DNA of 64,000 bases, taken from NCBI RefSeq assembly GCF_900104065.1, contig NZ_FNLC01000001.1:682001-746000 (forward strand), in the 5' to 3' direction. Source of the DNA: Natronobacterium texcoconense. GTDB taxonomy: Archaea; Halobacteriota; Halobacteria; Halobacteriales; Natrialbaceae. Shown here one piece after another: positions 4,790 to 31,564 of this stretch (positions are counted from its first letter, which is position 1; the number at the start of each line of letters is the position of its first letter). The position numbers were made by a program, and so were the translations under genes. A model generated the notes under the pieces. The model searched no databases and had not been told where the DNA came from. It saw only the letters and a program-made list of their open reading frames with translations.

Positions 4790-5950
4790 TTACTGAGTTT
4801 CCAACGTATCCTGTACCAGTTGCGGTTCGATCGTGTGCGTCCCGTCATCAACGGCCTCGTCAAGCACGCGACTGCAGATAGACAGTACCTGCCGAATATT
4901 GCCCTGCGACCGCTGAAGGACGACCTGTAGGGCATCCTCGGTGAATGGATCAAGCCCGGCCTGCCCATCGGTCCGTGCCGTCTCAAGGTAGCTTTCCACG
5001 AGATCGTAGAGTTGGTCGTCGGTCAACGGTCTGAGAGCGACTTCGTTCCCGATCCGCTCGGAGAACGCGTGATACTCCTGCATCACGTCCTGCCAGACCT
5101 CGGGCGCACAAGCAAACAAGATACTCAGGCCAGAACTATTCTGATCCATCAAGTGCCGGATACTGTTCAGCGTGGACTGCTTGTCCGCCGCTGACAACTG
5201 GGCGATGGATTCGAACTCGTCGATAAACACGTACACACCGATATACCCCAGATCCTGCAACAGGTTCTTGAACGAGGTAAACGCCCGGACAGCCATCGTA
5301 TCATCATCCAGCGCGGTATGGATCTCCATCGTCTTCCGCTGCTCATACCGGATACCTTCCCCCGTCAACCACTGCCAGGCATAGAGATCCGTATCCTCGT
5401 ACACCATGTGGACCATCGCCCGAGCAAAATCAGCGAACTTCGTCACATCACTCAACCGCTGAACCGCCCCTGGTACGATGTCGGACAACAGGACATCCCC
5501 ATCATCGATCAGGTCCTGCATCGCCCTGCCGCTCACCGGGTTTCGCTCCGTTTCATCCCGTGCCATTCGCGCAAGGTACTCGTAGGCAAACTCCTGCACC
5601 TGATCGAACCCGATATCGTACATGAACTCGTGGTAGATGTCGTGAAACCCCTCTCCGGGCTGAGCAACATATCCGACCACGACATCGTCGCGGTCACGGA
5701 CCAGTGACCGCGCATATTTCAGTGTATGGCTCTTCCCATTCCCATACTTTCCTGTCACCACCAGATGCTTCGACTTCCCGGTGCCGAGCAGCGTCGACAC
5801 TGTGTCACTCACCGCCTCCACAACGTGGTCCTGTCCACAGTAGATGATCGGATCCTCGGCAGGAACCGGACTATACGGGAATGGATTCTCCTCGAGACCG
5901 TACATGGTGTAATCGCGCGATTCGTCCGTGATGGTGAAACTGTCACTCAT
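4790..5950 (-). CDS. AAA+ ATPase (DUF2791/BrxC-D-like P-loop protein)
   Basis: This 386-residue protein has a clear Walker A (GKYGNGKS, K73) and Walker B (VFIDEFES, D244 E245). A sensor-like stretch ILFACAPEV follows, then a C-terminal helical lid. The opening YGLEENPFPYSP resembles the start of ORC/DnaA-type and BREX-associated ATPases, which couple ATP hydrolysis to DNA-bound complexes. Its start codon overlaps the stop of the winged-helix gene (5947-5950, ATGA), which in turn overlaps the TGT-like gene, so the three are translationally coupled and probably work as one complex. The order TGT-like, winged helix, ATPase suggests that the ATPase drives or regulates a base-exchange or restriction step. 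The precise subfamily is uncertain. Confidence 0.75.
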   Translation of the reverse strand: MSDSFTITDESRDYTMYGLEENPFPYSPVPAEDPIIYCGQDHVVEAVSDTVSTLLGTGKSKHLVVTGKYGNGKSHTLKYARSLVRDRDDVVVGYVAQPGEGFHDIYHEFMYDIGFDQVQEFAYEYLARMARDETERNPVSGRAMQDLIDDGDVLLSDIVPGAVQRLSDVTKFADFARAMVHMVYEDTDLYAWQWLTGEGIRYEQRKTMEIHTALDDDTMAVRAFTSFKNLLQDLGYIGVYVFIDEFESIAQLSAADKQSTLNSIRHLMDQNSSGLSILFACAPEVWQDVMQEYHAFSERIGNEVALRPLTDDQLYDLVESYLETARTDGQAGLDPFTEDALQVVLQRSQGNIRQVLSICSRVLDEAVDDGTHTIEPQLVQDTLETQ

Positions 5951-6861
5951 GGTTCTGGATCAAACGTGACCGCATCGTCGTGAACTGCAAGGTAGTAGTA
6001 CCGTTTGCCGTACTGTTCCACACCCGCCATGACCTGCTCCGTTGAATGCGTGGTCGTGACCAGTCCCTCTTCGTCATCCGCCAGTCGGATCTGCTTGATC
6101 CCCCATTCAGCATCTTTCGCCCCGGTATCGGTCGGTGCACCAAGGAGCTCCAGCTTTCCAATATTCTGACCTACAAGAGTTGTCAAGCCGGTATCGAACG
6201 CATCCCGATCACACCGAACACGCTCACAGAGAAATTCCCGCAGCTCCGGGATCGATACATACCGTTGCGACAGGTTGACTCCGGTCCGCTCCTCCAACTC
6301 ATCGAAGACCGCCAGCAGTACGAACGGGAAATTGGGGGGTACCGTAGATCGGTCCACGACATAGTACGTTCCGGTGAACGCGTTACGCTGGATCACTCCC
6401 AACCGCTCGGCCCAGTCACCGACGACCTCGACGCCGGTCTGATTAAACGCATACGGTGTGTGCTCGTTCCGGTCCTCTAACTCCGCCAGCAGGGTCTGCA
6501 ACTCGGCTGGTTGGATCTCCTCCAGCACGGAAAGGAACGCACCATAATGAGGACTCCGCGTCTCCAGGATGGAACTTACCTGCCGCCAGTCCTCATCCGT
6601 GACCGCCTCGTGAAACTGTTCTCCAACAGTCGTCACCCGATACCGGTCCACCTCGTCATCTCTACCATCATCCGTTGATTGCAGGGTCCGGATAAGATCG
6701 AGTCGCAGACTCTCCAGCACGATTGACCGAAGCCGCCGCTCAGTCGTGTCGAACTGCTCCTCAAGATTCGACATCGTCTGTGAACTGTTGAGACAGGCAT
6801 CCGTGATCTCTACCAGTCGTGCAAGCGTCACCGGCCGAACCGTAGGACGTTGATCGCTCAT
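5947..6861 (-). CDS. Winged-helix protein of the TGT/ATPase operon, function unknown
   Basis: I do not recognise a family for this 304-residue protein. Residues 10-60 (LVEITDACLN ... TERRLRSIVLESLRLDLI) and 110-175 look like winged-helix units: helix-rich with a terminal strand such as YYVVDRS. A further helical module covers 195-240. It has no catalytic motif that I can see. It overlaps both neighbours by 4 bp (ATGA junctions at 5947-5950 and 6858-6861), implying fixed stoichiometry with the ATPase and the TGT-like enzyme. A DNA-binding or substrate-selecting subunit is the simplest inference. Comparison with DpdG-type proteins would be informative. Confidence 0.6.
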   Translation of the reverse strand: MSDQRPTVRPVTLARLVEITDACLNSSQTMSNLEEQFDTTERRLRSIVLESLRLDLIRTLQSTDDGRDDEVDRYRVTTVGEQFHEAVTDEDWRQVSSILETRSPHYGAFLSVLEEIQPAELQTLLAELEDRNEHTPYAFNQTGVEVVGDWAERLGVIQRNAFTGTYYVVDRSTVPPNFPFVLLAVFDELEERTGVNLSQRYVSIPELREFLCERVRCDRDAFDTGLTTLVGQNIGKLELLGAPTDTGAKDAEWGIKQIRLADDEEGLVTTTHSTEQVMAGVEQYGKRYYYLAVHDDAVTFDPEP

Positions 6862-7892
6862 GCAAACCTCCTGACCCGCTGTTTCGCGGCTTGGTACGCC
6901 CGCTGTGTGACCTCGTTCCCTTGGAACCGGAGATCCAGATATGTCTCCACGTCCTCACCTGCCGCCACCATATATCGGAACCGCCGGAGTTCCATCGTCA
7001 ACGCCCAGAGATTGTGTTGCGTCAGTGCGTCCCGGTCCTTGCGCAGTTCCACCAGCGGCGTATCACGGCAGACCGGACAGGAACACGGCAGGTACGAGAG
7101 ATCCGTCACATGAGACAGTTCCTGCCCGCCAAACCCCGGGATCAAGTAGTTCCGGTTCGCAGCACTCCGGATGAACGCAGTCGAATCAAAACTATCGACA
7201 CCGAGGTACAGCAATAAGGGCTGATACACTAATCCACCCAGTCCGTACACGTGAAGATGCTTCTCAGTTGTCCGCCGAGCCGCCAGAATCAACCGAATAA
7301 CCTTCTCGTAATCCGTTCGGACCGGAACAAGACTCCCGAGGGCATATCCATCAAACTCTCCGTTCTTCTCCAAGTAATTGATATTATTCCGGACTGTCTC
7401 CGAATCAAGTCCGTGGACACTGGCGAACAGAAGTTGTTCCCCATCGTGCCGGTCACTCGCAGCAAGGGCGTATTCAGTACTCTCGGATATCCGGCGCTGG
7501 TTTTCCGCATCACGATTCTCTCGTGACAATGGACGGTCCACCGTTCCCAGGATGTCTGCACCGATCTGGCGTTGGGTCTCCAGTGTCCGTTCTGGGGTAG
7601 TGTCAACCTTGTCGGCCTGAAAGTCGTATCCCCCACTGTCGGCAAACACCACTGTATCTGAGGGGACACCCATCTCTTCCCGGAGTGTCGTCCCATCAAG
7701 AAGCCGATTCCATTGCGGTTCACGTTGCCTGATCGCTCGTGCGTTCACCATCGCCGTCTGGAGATCTGGGATCGCCTCAATGTACGCCGGTGTATTGTCA
7801 GAGGACCGCTTTCCGATATTCCGGACCGGGAATAAGACTGGTGTCTCCACGCTCCCGTGGGGGGTCTCGAGCATTTGTTGTCTGTACAGCAT
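6858..7892 (-). CDS. TGT-fold base transglycosylase (archaeosine-TGT-like catalytic domain)
   Basis: This 344-residue protein keeps the features of the tRNA-guanine transglycosylase fold: the general acid/base motif FADSGGYDFQ (D85), the TPE...Q.IGADI segment (about 99-115), the LGSLVP phosphate/base loop (185-190), the nucleophile motif GVDSFDST (D233/D236, matching GVDMFDCV of TGTs), and a zinc site C270-x-C272-x2-C275...H293. TGTs swap guanine for a 7-deazaguanine such as preQ0. The archaeal tRNA enzyme (TgtA) carries extra C-terminal domains including PUA, absent here, so the target is probably not canonical tRNA; DNA is plausible as for DpdA. It is the first gene of an overlapping operon with a winged-helix protein and an ATPase. 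Confidence 0.8.
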   Translation of the reverse strand: MLYRQQMLETPHGSVETPVLFPVRNIGKRSSDNTPAYIEAIPDLQTAMVNARAIRQREPQWNRLLDGTTLREEMGVPSDTVVFADSGGYDFQADKVDTTPERTLETQRQIGADILGTVDRPLSRENRDAENQRRISESTEYALAASDRHDGEQLLFASVHGLDSETVRNNINYLEKNGEFDGYALGSLVPVRTDYEKVIRLILAARRTTEKHLHVYGLGGLVYQPLLLYLGVDSFDSTAFIRSAANRNYLIPGFGGQELSHVTDLSYLPCSCPVCRDTPLVELRKDRDALTQHNLWALTMELRRFRYMVAAGEDVETYLDLRFQGNEVTQRAYQAAKQRVRRFA

Positions 7893-8002: not shown

Positions 8003-8278
8003 ATGCTCGACGACGTTCGGGAAATCGTCTGTCCGAAATGGTCGATCGAAATCCTTGGGTTCCTCGCTAAAAACAGTCCGCAGAACTACAGCGACATTGC
8101 CGAAGAGTTCGACACATCGAGCGATATCATCGTTAACCGGCTTCAACAATTAGTTGATACCGGGCTTCTGGAACGTGACGAGCGAAGTGTAAAAGACGTC
8201 CAGTACTCAATCACAGAAGACGGGGAAGAACTCATAAAGATTCTCGAAGATGCCGACAACCTTCTCGACGATCAGTAG
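8003..8278 (+). CDS. HxlR/ArsR-like winged-helix regulator
   Basis: This 91-residue single-domain protein has the HxlR-type opening CPKWSIEILGFL followed by a helix-turn-helix (YSDIAEEFDTSSDIIVNRLQQLVDTGLL) and a wing strand ending YSITEDGEELI. Such proteins bind DNA as dimers and often control the adjacent divergent operon; the palindrome at 7933-7948 is a good target. Its 3' end overlaps the convergent DUF6884-like gene by 7 bp (8272-8278), so it sits between the two TGT-type modules and could couple their expression. Confidence 0.75.
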   Translation: MLDDVREIVCPKWSIEILGFLAKNSPQNYSDIAEEFDTSSDIIVNRLQQLVDTGLLERDERSVKDVQYSITEDGEELIKILEDADNLLDDQ

Positions 8279-8970
8279 TCACTCAGGCCCGACTGATTCG
8301 GATCTACGGTACAGTACCGTTCTATCTCAGATACATTCGTCGGCGTATTTCCGTTCTCCCGGTGCAATGCGAAGTTCTCGATAAATTCCCCTTTCAACGC
8401 AATCACGATTGTTCCGTACTCTTTCGCATCTGTTGTTCGGGCCGATACTGATACAGCGTTCTCATACTCGGTAGCCAAGTCTTCACTGTTGAACAGCACG
8501 ATGAAGGTTTCTTCCGGGATAAGGGAAACAAGGTCGTCGATTTGTGCACTCCGGTAATAGTCGCTGCCCAACGCGAAAAAGATGATATCGTACGCATTGT
8601 CAGAAATGCGGTCACGCAGATCGTCGTAGATTTCGAGTTGCTTTGCCCGCTCGTCAACCTCCGCGGTGGTCATATCGGAGAATGTGACGTCGTACAGTGG
8701 CAGTGATTCTGACGCGTCAACGACGCCGAATCCAGCACTGATGAAGACACGGTCGACGTCGTCGCCCGCTTCTTCGAACCGTGTCACAGCGTCGGAGATA
8801 CGTTGTTGCTGCCGCCCTTCGTAGAGCTGATCAGCAGGCTCGACGTAGACATCATCCTGCTGAACGAGTTCTGTCCGGGGAGTTGAGTCGATCGTCTCTG
8901 TATTGACTGGCTCGTACCGGGTCTTCCCTTTCTTATCGCTTGAACACTGGTCGACGATGAGTACCTGCAT
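8272..8970 (-). CDS. DUF6884/YaaA-like protein, partner of DpdA
   Basis: This 232-residue protein has an N-terminal Rossmann-like strand with a Cys/Lys motif (DQCSSDKKGK, C9, K13, K14), then ADQLYEGRQQQR and FISAGFGVVDASESLPLYD, the pattern of the DUF6884/YaaA-like family (call from motif resemblance). It starts 2 bp after the stop of the DpdA gene, so the two are cotranscribed. In bacterial Dpd systems a helper converts the inserted preQ0 nitrile to an amide, and this protein is a candidate for such a step; that is inference. Its last seven residues, QSGLSDY, are the same as those of DpdA but use different codons at four of seven positions. Confidence 0.65.
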   Translation of the reverse strand: MQVLIVDQCSSDKKGKTRYEPVNTETIDSTPRTELVQQDDVYVEPADQLYEGRQQQRISDAVTRFEEAGDDVDRVFISAGFGVVDASESLPLYDVTFSDMTTAEVDERAKQLEIYDDLRDRISDNAYDIIFFALGSDYYRSAQIDDLVSLIPEETFIVLFNSEDLATEYENAVSVSARTTDAKEYGTIVIALKGEFIENFALHRENGNTPTNVSEIERYCTVDPNQSGLSDY

Positions 8971-8972
8971 GG

Positions 8973-11168
8973 TTAGTAGTCGGAGAGCCCTGACTGCATC
9001 ATTGGTTCCGGAACGAACTCGCTATCGTAGTCCAGTCGCTTGAGGACTGCGGCACGTAGATCTCGTGGGTCATCGATAATATGGACGTTACACCCGGTCG
9101 ATTCGATGGCCTCTACCAGTTCCTTTTCTGGTGTCCAGTTTTTCCCGTCGATGAAGACGTCTTGGTACCGGGCGCAGTACTCTTGCAGTTCGTTCTGAAT
9201 TGCACGAGGTGCGAAGGAGATCGACGTCGGTGATGCGTCCCACCACTCGTGAATTCCGTTCGCGGTCACGGCCCCAATCTCTGCGACAGGGAGATCATGC
9301 ACTTCTGACCAGAACTGGGGTCGGTTATCCTGAAGGAACTTGTCAACAGATTCATGGACAGAAAGGCCGGTCCCGCCCCGCGTCAGGACCGCCATCTTCG
9401 GGAGAGCTCGCTCGAACTGGTCGTAAAACCGGCGCGTATTGTGGAAGCCACGGCGACGGTTCCGGTTGTTCCCCCGGAAGATTGCGACTTCGATGCCCTG
9501 TTCTCGGCAGATCCGGCAATCACACTCACGCCATGGTTCGTGGCGTAACATCTCTTTGTATGCGTCGAGGTAGCCTTCGTCTTCCACATGGGCAGCATAA
9601 TTTTGCACCAGTATCCACACCTGATCGAACGTGCCGTACTCACCGGACCGTTCCTCTCGTTTGCTAATTTCCTCTAGTTTCGTTGGTGACCAGTCATCGA
9701 AGACGGTTCGAACACGGTCGATCAGGTCTTGGTACTCACTGAACGGGACCGGGTTGTCCGGGTCATCCTTTCGCAGTAGTTTCGCAAGACGACCACGGAA
9801 CTTGCCGCTGAAGTTTGCTCGAAGTTTCGATCCGTACGCGTAATCACTCCGAAGTTCCTCTTTGACATCTCGGAGGAGAGACTGATCATACCGGTCGTCA
9901 TGCCGGTGTTCTCTGAGGTATGGTTCGAGATTGTCTAAGGAGACGACCGCTGACTGGTGCCAGTCGATTAGCGCATCCGCGATTGACTCGTCGTTGTCGA
10001 ACGCCCGCAACGCGTATAGCATCTCTTGGCCGCGGAGCGCAGTCTCTACCGCTTCTTCGACCGAGGCTCGACTGGACGGATATCGGATGCGGATGGCGTC
10101 GTACCGGTTGTCACTGTCCAGATGGTAATTATCGCCCCCGGTCCACGCGGCACGGAGCATACTGGCGCTGTCGAAACTGGCCATCCCGCTCCGGCCGATG
10201 GTCTCGAAGGCTCCGGTCTTCGCGAACCCGAACACGTGGGTATCAACGCGGGTCTCGTGTTCGCGCTCGAATTCTTTCACTCGGTGACCAACCGATGTTA
10301 CACAGTCTTTCACGTCTTCTTCGGAACTCCCGGCGACACCACCGATCCCAAGATACTGGTAGCCCAAGTCGAGGACCTGCTCGGCAGCCCGGCCATAAGA
10401 TCGAGGATCCCAGCCCTGGATCGCGACCATCAACCGGAACGAATAGTCTCCGGCATCGTAGAGCTCTTTCATCTCTTTCGCGTTCGCCAGCGTCAGTTCA
10501 TACCGGAACGACATATCGTCATCCCGATACACTGCATGGGGATGGGTATCCAGGTCAGCCAGTATGGCTGAGAGCGGTTGATCGAAGATCGCTGGGTCGA
10601 ACTCTTGGACATCGGTGCCGTAGATCGATGGCTCATATTCTTGGACGTAGTCTGGCCACTCAGCAGGCCACTCATCGGTCATCACGTCGACTTCGCTCGA
10701 GATCTCGTCAGGGATGTCCGATGTTGAAAATCCGTCTGGGAACGCTCGTTCGTCTAGATACAAGCGTGCCGTATGCCCGCTCCCGAGTACGAGGTGATCA
10801 ATAGTGACGCCGACAGAGACATCAAGCGTTTCGTAGAACTCGAGCATTTCTTCGTTGCTGTACGGGGGGAACGGGAAGGATTTGTACCCCCACGCACCAC
10901 AGTCACTGATCGTTGGAAGCCACTTCGGGATGTCCAACATCGGCGCATCATAGACGCCATTTTCAGTGATGCGCTCATATTTGGATGGCGTATCCTCTAC
11001 CTGCTCACGAGAAATTAATACACCGTCGATTGGTGTCGACTCGTAATCGAAGATATCCCAAATATACGCGGTATCACGTTCACTTGGATCTAGTTCTGAG
11101 TGCTCATCGTGGATAAAGTCATAGTTCGCGTCGACGAAGTCATCCCATTCTGGAACGTAGAACCGCAC
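8973..11168 (-). CDS. dpdA: DpdA-type DNA guanine transglycosylase
   Basis: This 731-residue protein matches the DpdA layout. It has WLPTISDCGAWGY (D89), a PPYS..E..EFY segment, GVTIDHLV (D124), the barrel strands VAIQGWD and GIGGVAGS, HVFGFAKTG, the nucleophile motif ASFDSASMLRA (D333), and a zinc site C549-x-C551-x2-C554 followed by EVAIFRGNNRNRRRGFHN with H576. Bacterial DpdA puts preQ0 into DNA in place of guanine. A ~130-residue C-terminal extension ends in QSGLSDY. The ORF opens with GTG at 11168. An AT-rich TATA-like stretch lies only about 10 nt upstream, so the real start may be a little downstream. The following gene (DUF6884-like) begins 2 bp after the stop. Archaeal hosts supply preQ0 through the archaeosine pathway. 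Confidence 0.85.
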   Translation of the reverse strand: MRFYVPEWDDFVDANYDFIHDEHSELDPSERDTAYIWDIFDYESTPIDGVLISREQVEDTPSKYERITENGVYDAPMLDIPKWLPTISDCGAWGYKSFPFPPYSNEEMLEFYETLDVSVGVTIDHLVLGSGHTARLYLDERAFPDGFSTSDIPDEISSEVDVMTDEWPAEWPDYVQEYEPSIYGTDVQEFDPAIFDQPLSAILADLDTHPHAVYRDDDMSFRYELTLANAKEMKELYDAGDYSFRLMVAIQGWDPRSYGRAAEQVLDLGYQYLGIGGVAGSSEEDVKDCVTSVGHRVKEFEREHETRVDTHVFGFAKTGAFETIGRSGMASFDSASMLRAAWTGGDNYHLDSDNRYDAIRIRYPSSRASVEEAVETALRGQEMLYALRAFDNDESIADALIDWHQSAVVSLDNLEPYLREHRHDDRYDQSLLRDVKEELRSDYAYGSKLRANFSGKFRGRLAKLLRKDDPDNPVPFSEYQDLIDRVRTVFDDWSPTKLEEISKREERSGEYGTFDQVWILVQNYAAHVEDEGYLDAYKEMLRHEPWRECDCRICREQGIEVAIFRGNNRNRRRGFHNTRRFYDQFERALPKMAVLTRGGTGLSVHESVDKFLQDNRPQFWSEVHDLPVAEIGAVTANGIHEWWDASPTSISFAPRAIQNELQEYCARYQDVFIDGKNWTPEKELVEAIESTGCNVHIIDDPRDLRAAVLKRLDYDSEFVPEPMMQSGLSDY

Positions 11169-29447: not shown

Positions 29448-29699
29448 ATGAAGCAGAGAATGCCCGGAGACTTCGAGGAAGAGATCCGATTCTTCGGTCG
29501 GTTCACCTGGAAGGACCTGATTCGGATGGGTCTGCCACCGATAGTTGCTGCCCAGTCAGCCGGCCTCACGTCCACGGCAGGATCTATTGCGGTGCTATTC
29601 ACCGGAGGGGTCGTCGGCGCTGCCTGGTACCTGTTCCGTCCAGGAGGACAGCCGGTAGACATCCACCTCTACCACTTGCTCCGATGGGTGATCACATGA
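29448..29699 (+). CDS. VirB3-like membrane protein
   Basis: This 83-residue protein begins with an amphipathic stretch (PGDFEEEIRFFGRFTWKDLIRMG), then a hydrophobic hairpin (SIAVLFTGGVVGAAWYL) and a cytoplasmic tail, the VirB3/TrbD plan. Its stop codon overlaps the VirB4-like start (ATGA at 29696-29699). In bacteria VirB3 is closely tied to VirB4, and the coupling here suggests the same. Confidence 0.6.
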   Translation: MKQRMPGDFEEEIRFFGRFTWKDLIRMGLPPIVAAQSAGLTSTAGSIAVLFTGGVVGAAWYLFRPGGQPVDIHLYHLLRWVIT

Positions 29700-31564
29700 A
29701 GAGACCTGTTCCACGGCCCCGTGTCAAGATGAATGACAAGGTGGCTGTCATCGATCGGGATGCGTTGCTCAGCGTGCTGAAGGTGTCACCGGTCAACCTA
29801 GATATGGCGACGGAAACCGATCAGAACGCGTTGCACCAGTTCTTCAGGGAACTTCTGGACAAGGTACCGTATCCCATCTACCTCTACTCGAGACAGTCTC
29901 CGACCGATCTCGGTCCGTATATAGAGCGGATTACCGGCGGTGAAGGCCACGAGAAACTCAGGAGTGAATACGTTGATCATCTGCGAAGCCTGTCGCAATC
30001 GGACCTAGTGGAGACGAGACATTTCATCGCTGTCCGGACCACCGACCAGTACGAATCCCCAGGAAAAGAGCTATATCGGAGAATCCGTGAAATCCGGTCT
30101 ACGCTACAGGGATTCGATCTCGAGGTCGAGCAGGTGACAGGTAGAGATCTGTTCGAGTTCCTGAAACAGGAATTCAATCCTTCGCCCGTATCAACTCGGG
30201 AGTTCTGTACCACGTCGGACAGCGGGTTCAACACGTATCGGAAACTGCTGTACGTCGATGAGTACCCGAGGAGGATCGGCTTCGGCTGGCCGCGACACGT
30301 CCAACGTGTGGATGGACTCGTCGATATCGCCCAGGTGTTTGAGCCGGTCAGTATCGACACTGCAGTAGATAAACTACGGCGGCAGTCCCGGAAGCTGGAC
30401 GCTGAAATCACTGCGTTCCAGCAACACGGACACAGGGGAACCAACCATTTGGAACGGTCGCTGAGTGACGTGGAGTGGTTTCTCGACCTGTTGGCGGATC
30501 AGGAGTGCCTACCGGTCAGGCACGGCTGCTACATCACGGTTCACGGGACTGACCGGGGCCAGGTCGAAGCGACATCGAGCCGCGTTGAGTCCCAGCTCCG
30601 GGCACTGGGGATCGAATACCAGGAGCCAATGTATCGCAACGATCACGCGTACTACACCGACTCCGTGTTCTACCGGGACCGGTTGGATGAGAAGCTGCTG
30701 ATGCCAACGGTTTCAGCAGCTACAGGATTCCCGTTCAGTTCACAGCCCCTCGAGAACGATACAGGCGTGCTCTACGGAGTCGATGTCGAATCGAACTCGC
30801 CGGTAGTCGTGGACAGGTTCAGCTGGAGTTCACACTCGATGGCGGTGACGGGGACACTCGGTGCCGGCAAGAGCTACCTGGCCCAACTCGAGTTGCTGAG
30901 GTCGGTCCTCGCATACCCCGGACTTCGGATCGTCGTTGTCGATCCCAAGAAGGAATTCCGTCCCACGGTAGAGGCGATCGGCGGCGAATCCAGACTACTC
31001 AGAGGTGGGAAGGAGTACAGCTTCGATCGAGAAGTGCTCAATTTCGAGCCCAGTGAAAGAGGCGGGGTCAAGGATCCGGCGTTAGTCGAACTGGTGAAAC
31101 AAATCTACTCCTCGGTATCGAAGGACAGGGAGAAGACGATCGTGCTGGTTGATGAGGCACACAACCTGTTGAAGGACGAAACAGGGCGTAGAATCCTCAA
31201 CAAGTTCGTCCTGGAGGCTCGCGACATCAACACCGCTGTCCATCTCGTCTCGCAGAACGCCTCACACTTCACGGAGTATAGTGACGGCAGGGAAATCCTG
31301 GATCACACACCGGGGAAGCTGTTCTTCCGCCACGACAACATCGAGGACTCGATGATCGACTACTTCGGCCTGTCAGACCAGGAAATATGGCTTCTGGAAC
31401 GTTTGAAGAGCGGTGAAGAAGCTGATCACGGTGAGGCACTGCTGAAGGTAGCTGGGAAGGTCGATGCCCGTATCAGGATCAGTTCGACACCCCGTGAACA
31501 CCGGATAATCGAGACCGAACCGGAAACACACCAACAAGAGGAGGTGGTGACATGGGTCTCCTGA
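29696..31564 (+). CDS. VirB4-like ATPase
   Basis: I use ATG 29696, which overlaps the VirB3-like stop; the frame also has an ATG 12 nt earlier. Numbering from that earlier ATG, Walker A is TGTLGAGKSYLA (K396) and Walker B is KTIVLVDEAHNLL (about 477-489), preceded by VVVDPKKEF and followed by LVSQNASHF, the VirB4/TraC order. The N-terminal ~370 residues form the usual VirB4 platform domain. VirB4 powers assembly and substrate transfer in type IV secretion. The next gene overlaps its end by 13 bp. Confidence 0.8.
   Translation: MKRPVPRPRVKMNDKVAVIDRDALLSVLKVSPVNLDMATETDQNALHQFFRELLDKVPYPIYLYSRQSPTDLGPYIERITGGEGHEKLRSEYVDHLRSLSQSDLVETRHFIAVRTTDQYESPGKELYRRIREIRSTLQGFDLEVEQVTGRDLFEFLKQEFNPSPVSTREFCTTSDSGFNTYRKLLYVDEYPRRIGFGWPRHVQRVDGLVDIAQVFEPVSIDTAVDKLRRQSRKLDAEITAFQQHGHRGTNHLERSLSDVEWFLDLLADQECLPVRHGCYITVHGTDRGQVEATSSRVESQLRALGIEYQEPMYRNDHAYYTDSVFYRDRLDEKLLMPTVSAATGFPFSSQPLENDTGVLYGVDVESNSPVVVDRFSWSSHSMAVTGTLGAGKSYLAQLELLRSVLAYPGLRIVVVDPKKEFRPTVEAIGGESRLLRGGKEYSFDREVLNFEPSERGGVKDPALVELVKQIYSSVSKDREKTIVLVDEAHNLLKDETGRRILNKFVLEARDINTAVHLVSQNASHFTEYSDGREILDHTPGKLFFRHDNIEDSMIDYFGLSDQEIWLLERLKSGEEADHGEALLKVAGKVDARIRISSTPREHRIIETEPETHQQEEVVTWVS

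Follow-up and report, generated by a model that had tools for sequence, protein, structure and literature searches.

Previously, the bacterial Dpd system has been described as dpdA, dpdB and dpdC together with the restriction genes dpdD-K. Bacterial DpdC converts preQ0 to its amide. In archaea, DpdA of Haloarcula vallismortis (EMA11768, AOLQ01000002) has been proposed to put preQ0 into the DNA of halovirus HVTV-1 (PMC6884629). PCNA-interacting peptides (PIP boxes) follow the general consensus QXXhXXaa (PMC4929162); the consensus for Haloferax volcanii, QxxLxxFx, requires no aromatic residue at position 8 (PMC7776575). All PIP motifs of three archaea examined lie at the very C-terminus, and positive flanks strengthen the binding of human PIP peptides (PMC6881253). 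The C-terminal PIP boxes of archaeal FEN1, RNase HII, RFC large subunit, Hel308, NreA and NucS place the same Q-x-x-hydrophobic-x-x-aromatic at a disordered extreme C-terminus.

The known archaeal carriers of such boxes replicate or repair DNA, whereas the two proteins considered here are base-modification enzymes that we predict to bind PCNA. Their genes lie in a stretch of 64,000 nucleotides from Natronobacterium texcoconense (contig NZ_FNLC01000001.1, positions 682,001 to 746,000 of the forward strand), called the window below.

Results

Composition of the locus

The features of the locus are collected in Table 1. The 731-residue product had been labelled DpdA in an earlier note made from the letters of the window, and the label stands: the protein scores 279 bits against the NCBIfam equivalog NF041059 (cut-off 200), and its family profile matches PDB 7ui4, a solved DNA-guanine transglycosylase, with E=8e-53. 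C549, C551, C554 and H576, together with D89 and D333, are invariant among 24 homologues; by analogy with TGT, the first four would form a TGT-type zinc site and the two aspartates would be catalytic. A weak Pfam match to Ago_N (E=0.005) was taken as chance. Viral origin was also considered and rejected, as a single IMG/VR scan with the DpdA alignment returned no relative and phage records gave one distant match.

The 232-residue partner matches DpdC in PADLOC (E=1.6e-8) and reaches 23.3 bits against Pfam DUF6884, under the cut-off of 30. It carries CxxxK (C9-K13) and SAxxG (78-82), the motifs given for DUF6884 by the Pfam curators (PMC11701544), with C9, K13, S78, A79 and G82 invariant, and dpdC is named as an example of DUF6884 in a 2025 preprint (PMC11888242). 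The AlphaFold model of the partner (mean pLDDT 90.8) has YaaA (5caj) as its best PDB fold match. Sequence and model together point to a DpdC/DUF6884-type protein with a YaaA-like fold.

Table 1. Features of the Dpd-like locus (window positions)
Feature	Coordinates	Strand	Basis or remark
DpdA, 731 aa	8973..11168	-	GTG start; NCBIfam NF041059 and profile match to PDB 7ui4
DpdC-like / DUF6884-type partner, 232 aa	8272..8970	-	PADLOC DpdC, AlphaFold, PDB fold match
Predicted PIP box of DpdA, C-terminal QSGLSDY	8976..8996	-	
Predicted PIP box of DpdC-like partner, C-terminal QSGLSDY	8275..8295	-	
Winged-helix (HxlR-like) regulator	8003..8278	+	Pfam HxlR 5e-9
Second TGT-family protein of the operon	6858..7892	-	Pfam TGT 3e-31; no PIP tail
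304-aa operon protein, no function assigned	5947..6861	-	Conserved gene order; no PIP tail
BrxC/BrxD-type ATPase of the operon	4790..5950	-	Pfam BrxC_BrxD 5e-19; no PIP tail

The HxlR-like gene is convergent with the partner gene and overlaps its last codons by 7 bases; Haloarcula sinaiiensis has a winged-helix gene in the same position on the opposite strand. Past this gene come the second TGT, the 304-residue protein, for which a Pfam scan gave no match, and the BrxC/D-type ATPase, an order also found in Natronosalvus, Natronorubrum and Haloarcula. The Haloarcula version of the locus additionally has QueD/QueE.

The locus resembles the bacterial Dpd system in having a DpdA above cut-off, a DpdC-like partner and, in relatives, preQ0 genes close by. 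It differs in that a scan of 10 window proteins gave no match to DpdB, which is not annotated in the haloarchaeal relatives shown either; the second TGT, the 304-residue protein and the BrxC/D-type ATPase are found instead. With BREX-related capture (BRC, PMC12839542) it has in common a TGT-family protein and a BREX-type ATPase, but BRC also combines a HerA/FtsK translocase, DUF6079, PglZ and DUF4007, and the window locus is not classed as BRC. About 19 kb from DpdA, an ATPase that looks HerA/VirB4-like by eye (29684-31564, plus strand) is probably part of a conjugation-type element and was not assigned to the Dpd operon.

The shared C-terminal tail in the window

Both minus-strand ORFs end in QSGLSDY, and, as the earlier note had stated, their codons are unlike at four of the seven positions (CAG TCG GGC CTG AGT GAC TAC TGA in the partner and CAG TCA GGG CTC TCC GAC TAC TAA in DpdA). 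The two C-terminal peptides read VDPNQSGLSDY and PEPMMQSGLSDY. A degenerate DNA pattern for QSGLSDY followed by a stop occurs in the whole 4.0 Mb genome at these two sites only. The heptapeptide has the form Q-x-x-L-x-x-aromatic and is a predicted C-terminal PIP box, not a private signature of the two proteins. The second aromatic residue of the classic PIP motif, position 8, is absent, both chains stopping at position 7, and the flanks of both tails are acidic or neutral.

Partner residues 227-232 have pLDDT values below 50, among the few such residues in its model, and so do residues 722-731 in the weaker model of DpdA. Both tails are therefore predicted to lie in a disordered, accessible segment. 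The DpdA model, poor over the first 100 residues, was used solely for this C-terminal end, and plasmid-record rows were left out of the alignments behind the models.

Conservation of the tail among haloarchaeal loci

Related loci were collected by DpdA similarity, not by tail, from the class and from a collection of named genomes. Both proteins terminate in Qxx[L/I/F]xx[F/Y/W] plus 0 to 5 residues in every distinct intact split locus (21/21). Among unique tails the glutamine is invariant on both proteins (in the partner as Q226, across 28 homologues); at position 4, DpdA has L or I and the partner L, F or I. Positions 2 and 5 vary most in both; tight constraint is confined to positions 1, 4 and 7, and the x residues drift between partners and loci. 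By chance, ~0.5% of proteins would be expected to end in Qxx[LIMFV]xx[FYW] plus at most five trailing residues, an estimate built on the composition of 14 window proteins. The related loci contain 527 long frames; the tail was present in 14, of which 13 were DpdA or partner. Occurring in all 21 intact split loci, the tail on both proteins is far beyond chance.

Identical heptamers on both proteins were seen in the window only, one of the 21 split loci, which rules out a private shared heptapeptide. Within loci, 3.67 of the seven positions are identical on average, compared with 3.26 in shuffled pairs (nominal P 0.013, computed without correction for the relatedness of loci). The proposal of the earlier note that the tail is selected as a peptide thus holds, Q1, L/I/F4 and F/Y/W7 being kept while codons differ and x positions drift. 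The idea that one heptapeptide is maintained between both proteins fails, because the x positions differ and the within-locus likeness barely exceeds the shuffled one. The co-conservation that the note had proposed to look for in an alignment of homologues was found in part: no intact split locus lacks the tail, but variation at the x positions is largely independent.

Second, broken copies of the locus were seen at L145 (G263:C3:4000-10000) and on a Halospeciosus flavus plasmid (L052/L060); there, frameshifts split DpdA and the partner end retains the tail.

Proteins without the tail

Distinct homologues of the second TGT (0/28), of the 304-residue protein (0/28) and of the BrxC/D-type ATPase (0/27) lack the tail, as do QueE (0/16), QueD (0/19) and distant DUF6884 proteins from genomes without this DpdA adjoining (0/10). 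None of the bacterial DpdAs compared has it, and they also lack the C-terminal extension of about 140 residues by which the archaeal DpdA differs from them. Bacterial cells use the beta clamp, not PCNA. The idea that bacterial DpdAs carry a clamp motif of their own instead was considered and set aside, since only the DpdA on an Acetobacter pasteurianus plasmid (L181) ends in RQQSFDFTPF and other bacterial DpdAs have nothing similar; in this single case the end might be a beta-clamp-type motif.

Fusions of DpdA and partner

On a DpdA-core tree that was built quickly and leaves some forks open, the split state forms the background within haloarchaea and fusion has two origins, one in L146 alone and one in a clade of 30. 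In many haloarchaea the partner domain is fused behind DpdA, and in Paenibacillus and on cyanobacterial plasmids (L173-L177) a DUF6884/DpdC-like domain is fused N-terminal to DpdA. Fusion in both orders argues that the two proteins work together.

A PIP-type sequence was found at the junction in none of 29 distinct fusions and at the terminus in 16. Loss of the inner tail on fusion is what a tether carried once per chain would predict. In the other 13, the terminal tail is degenerate (QAEFESE, QTTLHN, QKRLNGVNNE), so docking on PCNA cannot be indispensable in all lineages. The H. vallismortis DpdA belongs to the same family (locus L063, on the published contig) and, unlike that of the window, is fused to a DUF6884/DpdC-like domain and ends in the first of these degenerate tails. 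The virus concerned, HVTV-1, has genes for a DNA polymerase and for clamp loader proteins of its own.

PIP-type ends elsewhere in the genome

A DNA-level survey of the genome used the pattern Qxx[LF]xx[FY]-stop, followed by in-frame reading and Pfam assignment; tails that carry trailing residues or a Trp escape this strict pattern. It matched 29 places and was rarer than its reversed control at the DNA level, so the argument rests on the carrier genes and not on the count. The recognisable carriers, besides the two Dpd proteins, were RNase HII (QTGLEQF), a Hel308-type helicase (QSSLGDF), uracil-DNA glycosylase (UDG; QTRLDGF), an HhH/RNase H-fold protein (QTGLTDF), a DUF2797 protein (QSSLGSF; L120, G000:C1 about 541723-541746) and a small winged-helix ORF (QVYFLKY). 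The end of the last looks like part of a folded domain; that of the DUF2797 protein is, by its sequence, likely a PIP box. RNase HII, Hel308 and UDG of this genome likewise stop at position 7 with no second aromatic residue. FEN1 is a textbook PIP protein; here it ends in QTGLDRWT, and all 18 FEN1s that could be read in this genome and in its relatives follow the pattern. The genome encodes a PCNA that matches the one of H. volcanii (3hi8) along its entire length.

Discussion

The shared tails of DpdA and its DpdC-like partner are, very probably, C-terminal PIP boxes that dock both proteins on the PCNA sliding clamp. Of the roles that the earlier note had offered for the tail, a docking tag for a shared partner fits best and PCNA would be that partner, an assignment that rests on sequence. 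We infer with strong confidence that both Dpd proteins bind PCNA, and with moderate confidence that modification is coupled to replication and that labour is divided between the two. DpdA would exchange guanine in DNA for a 7-deazaguanine (preQ0). The DpdC-like partner would probably act next and turn the preQ0 now in the DNA into the amide. Each separate chain would need one PIP box, and a single box would be enough for a fused chain. With both enzymes on PCNA, modification would be coupled to replication or repair, since the clamp tether would make the marking of self DNA go along with DNA synthesis in both processes. Against PCNA docking we count the lack of an eighth aromatic residue and of positive flanks, and the degenerate tails of 13 of the 29 fusions.

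Alternatively, the tails might bind another Dpd-specific partner, such as the second TGT or the BrxC/D-type ATPase, their likeness to PIP boxes being coincidence or mimicry. Both tail carriers do lie in one operon and its other members are conserved alongside. However, the same type of tail occurs on FEN1, RNase HII, Hel308 and UDG, which are unlinked to Dpd, and the tail positions that are conserved coincide exactly with the PCNA-contacting ones of known PIP boxes. Furthermore, bacterial DpdA-DUF6884 fusions, including those of Paenibacillus with a TGT and an NTPase alongside, carry no PIP tail. We therefore consider such a partner unlikely. A role as degron or processing signal, also offered by the earlier note, by which the amounts of the two proteins would be controlled, fits less well than a docking tag and is very unlikely. 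The tail is short, C-terminal and predicted to be disordered, which would suit a signal of this kind, but Q1, L4 and an aromatic residue at position 7 in PIP spacing would not be expected of it, nor would sharing with long-lived replication proteins or loss from the inner end only upon gene fusion. Gene conversion, with DNA recently copied from one of the two neighbouring genes to the other, would account for the identical heptamers of the window and the slightly higher within-locus likeness, but it is refuted by the unlike codons and by the persistence of the tails, with different x residues, in 21 diverged loci, and is hardly credible.

Docking on PCNA may go further: tentatively, and with somewhat less than even confidence, we suggest that DpdA and the DpdC-like enzyme sit on two subunits of one PCNA ring in a two-step, replication-coupled assembly, and that PIP-like tails are old in archaeal DpdAs and absent in bacterial ones. 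The eukaryotic DNMT1 likewise marks DNA and has a PIP box (PMC6881253); enzyme and chemistry are unrelated, and the analogy extends only to the proposed logic of replication-coupled marking.

Our literature search, whose scope left subscription journals largely outside, returned no paper with both PCNA and DpdA, and none with both PCNA-interacting and 7-deazaguanine. PIP boxes, DpdA and DpdC have each been described before, and what seems to be new is the combination. A PCNA hook on the inserting and the maturing enzyme would offer, for archaea, an answer to how 7-deazaguanine systems reach all host DNA. Modification behind the fork would keep new self DNA from passing for foreign, by a logic analogous to that known for methylation in eukaryotes. 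Removal of the tail would be a simple way to part enzyme activity from recruitment, and two DNA-modifying enzymes would join the candidate archaeal PCNA interactome.

PIP-like ends were also seen on other proteins. The window encodes a 260-residue DpdA-family protein (Pfam PF23859; 20664-21446, minus strand) that ends in QQSLVHFKA, and a PIP-like tail is present in 3 of 10 haloarchaeal PF23859 loci: L168, L169 (QTDLGGFA) and L171 (QSSLEGFA). Distant archaeal DpdAs of about 570-590 residues (L194-L197, L149) have PIP spacing without the glutamine (NLTLDEFIEE, DSELNKFL, NRTINEFSRDQ, DRSLDEFVSSS, ESKLEEY), and three genomes of this set have FEN1s with QKTLDAWF-type ends. Judged from these sequences, the PIP-like tail may be older than the present DpdA family. 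Finally, a protein encoded near a related locus that looks PD-(D/E)XK-like by eye (L053:2861-4144, strand and coordinates of the reverse complement) ends in RQRSLSDF and is a candidate for another PCNA client.
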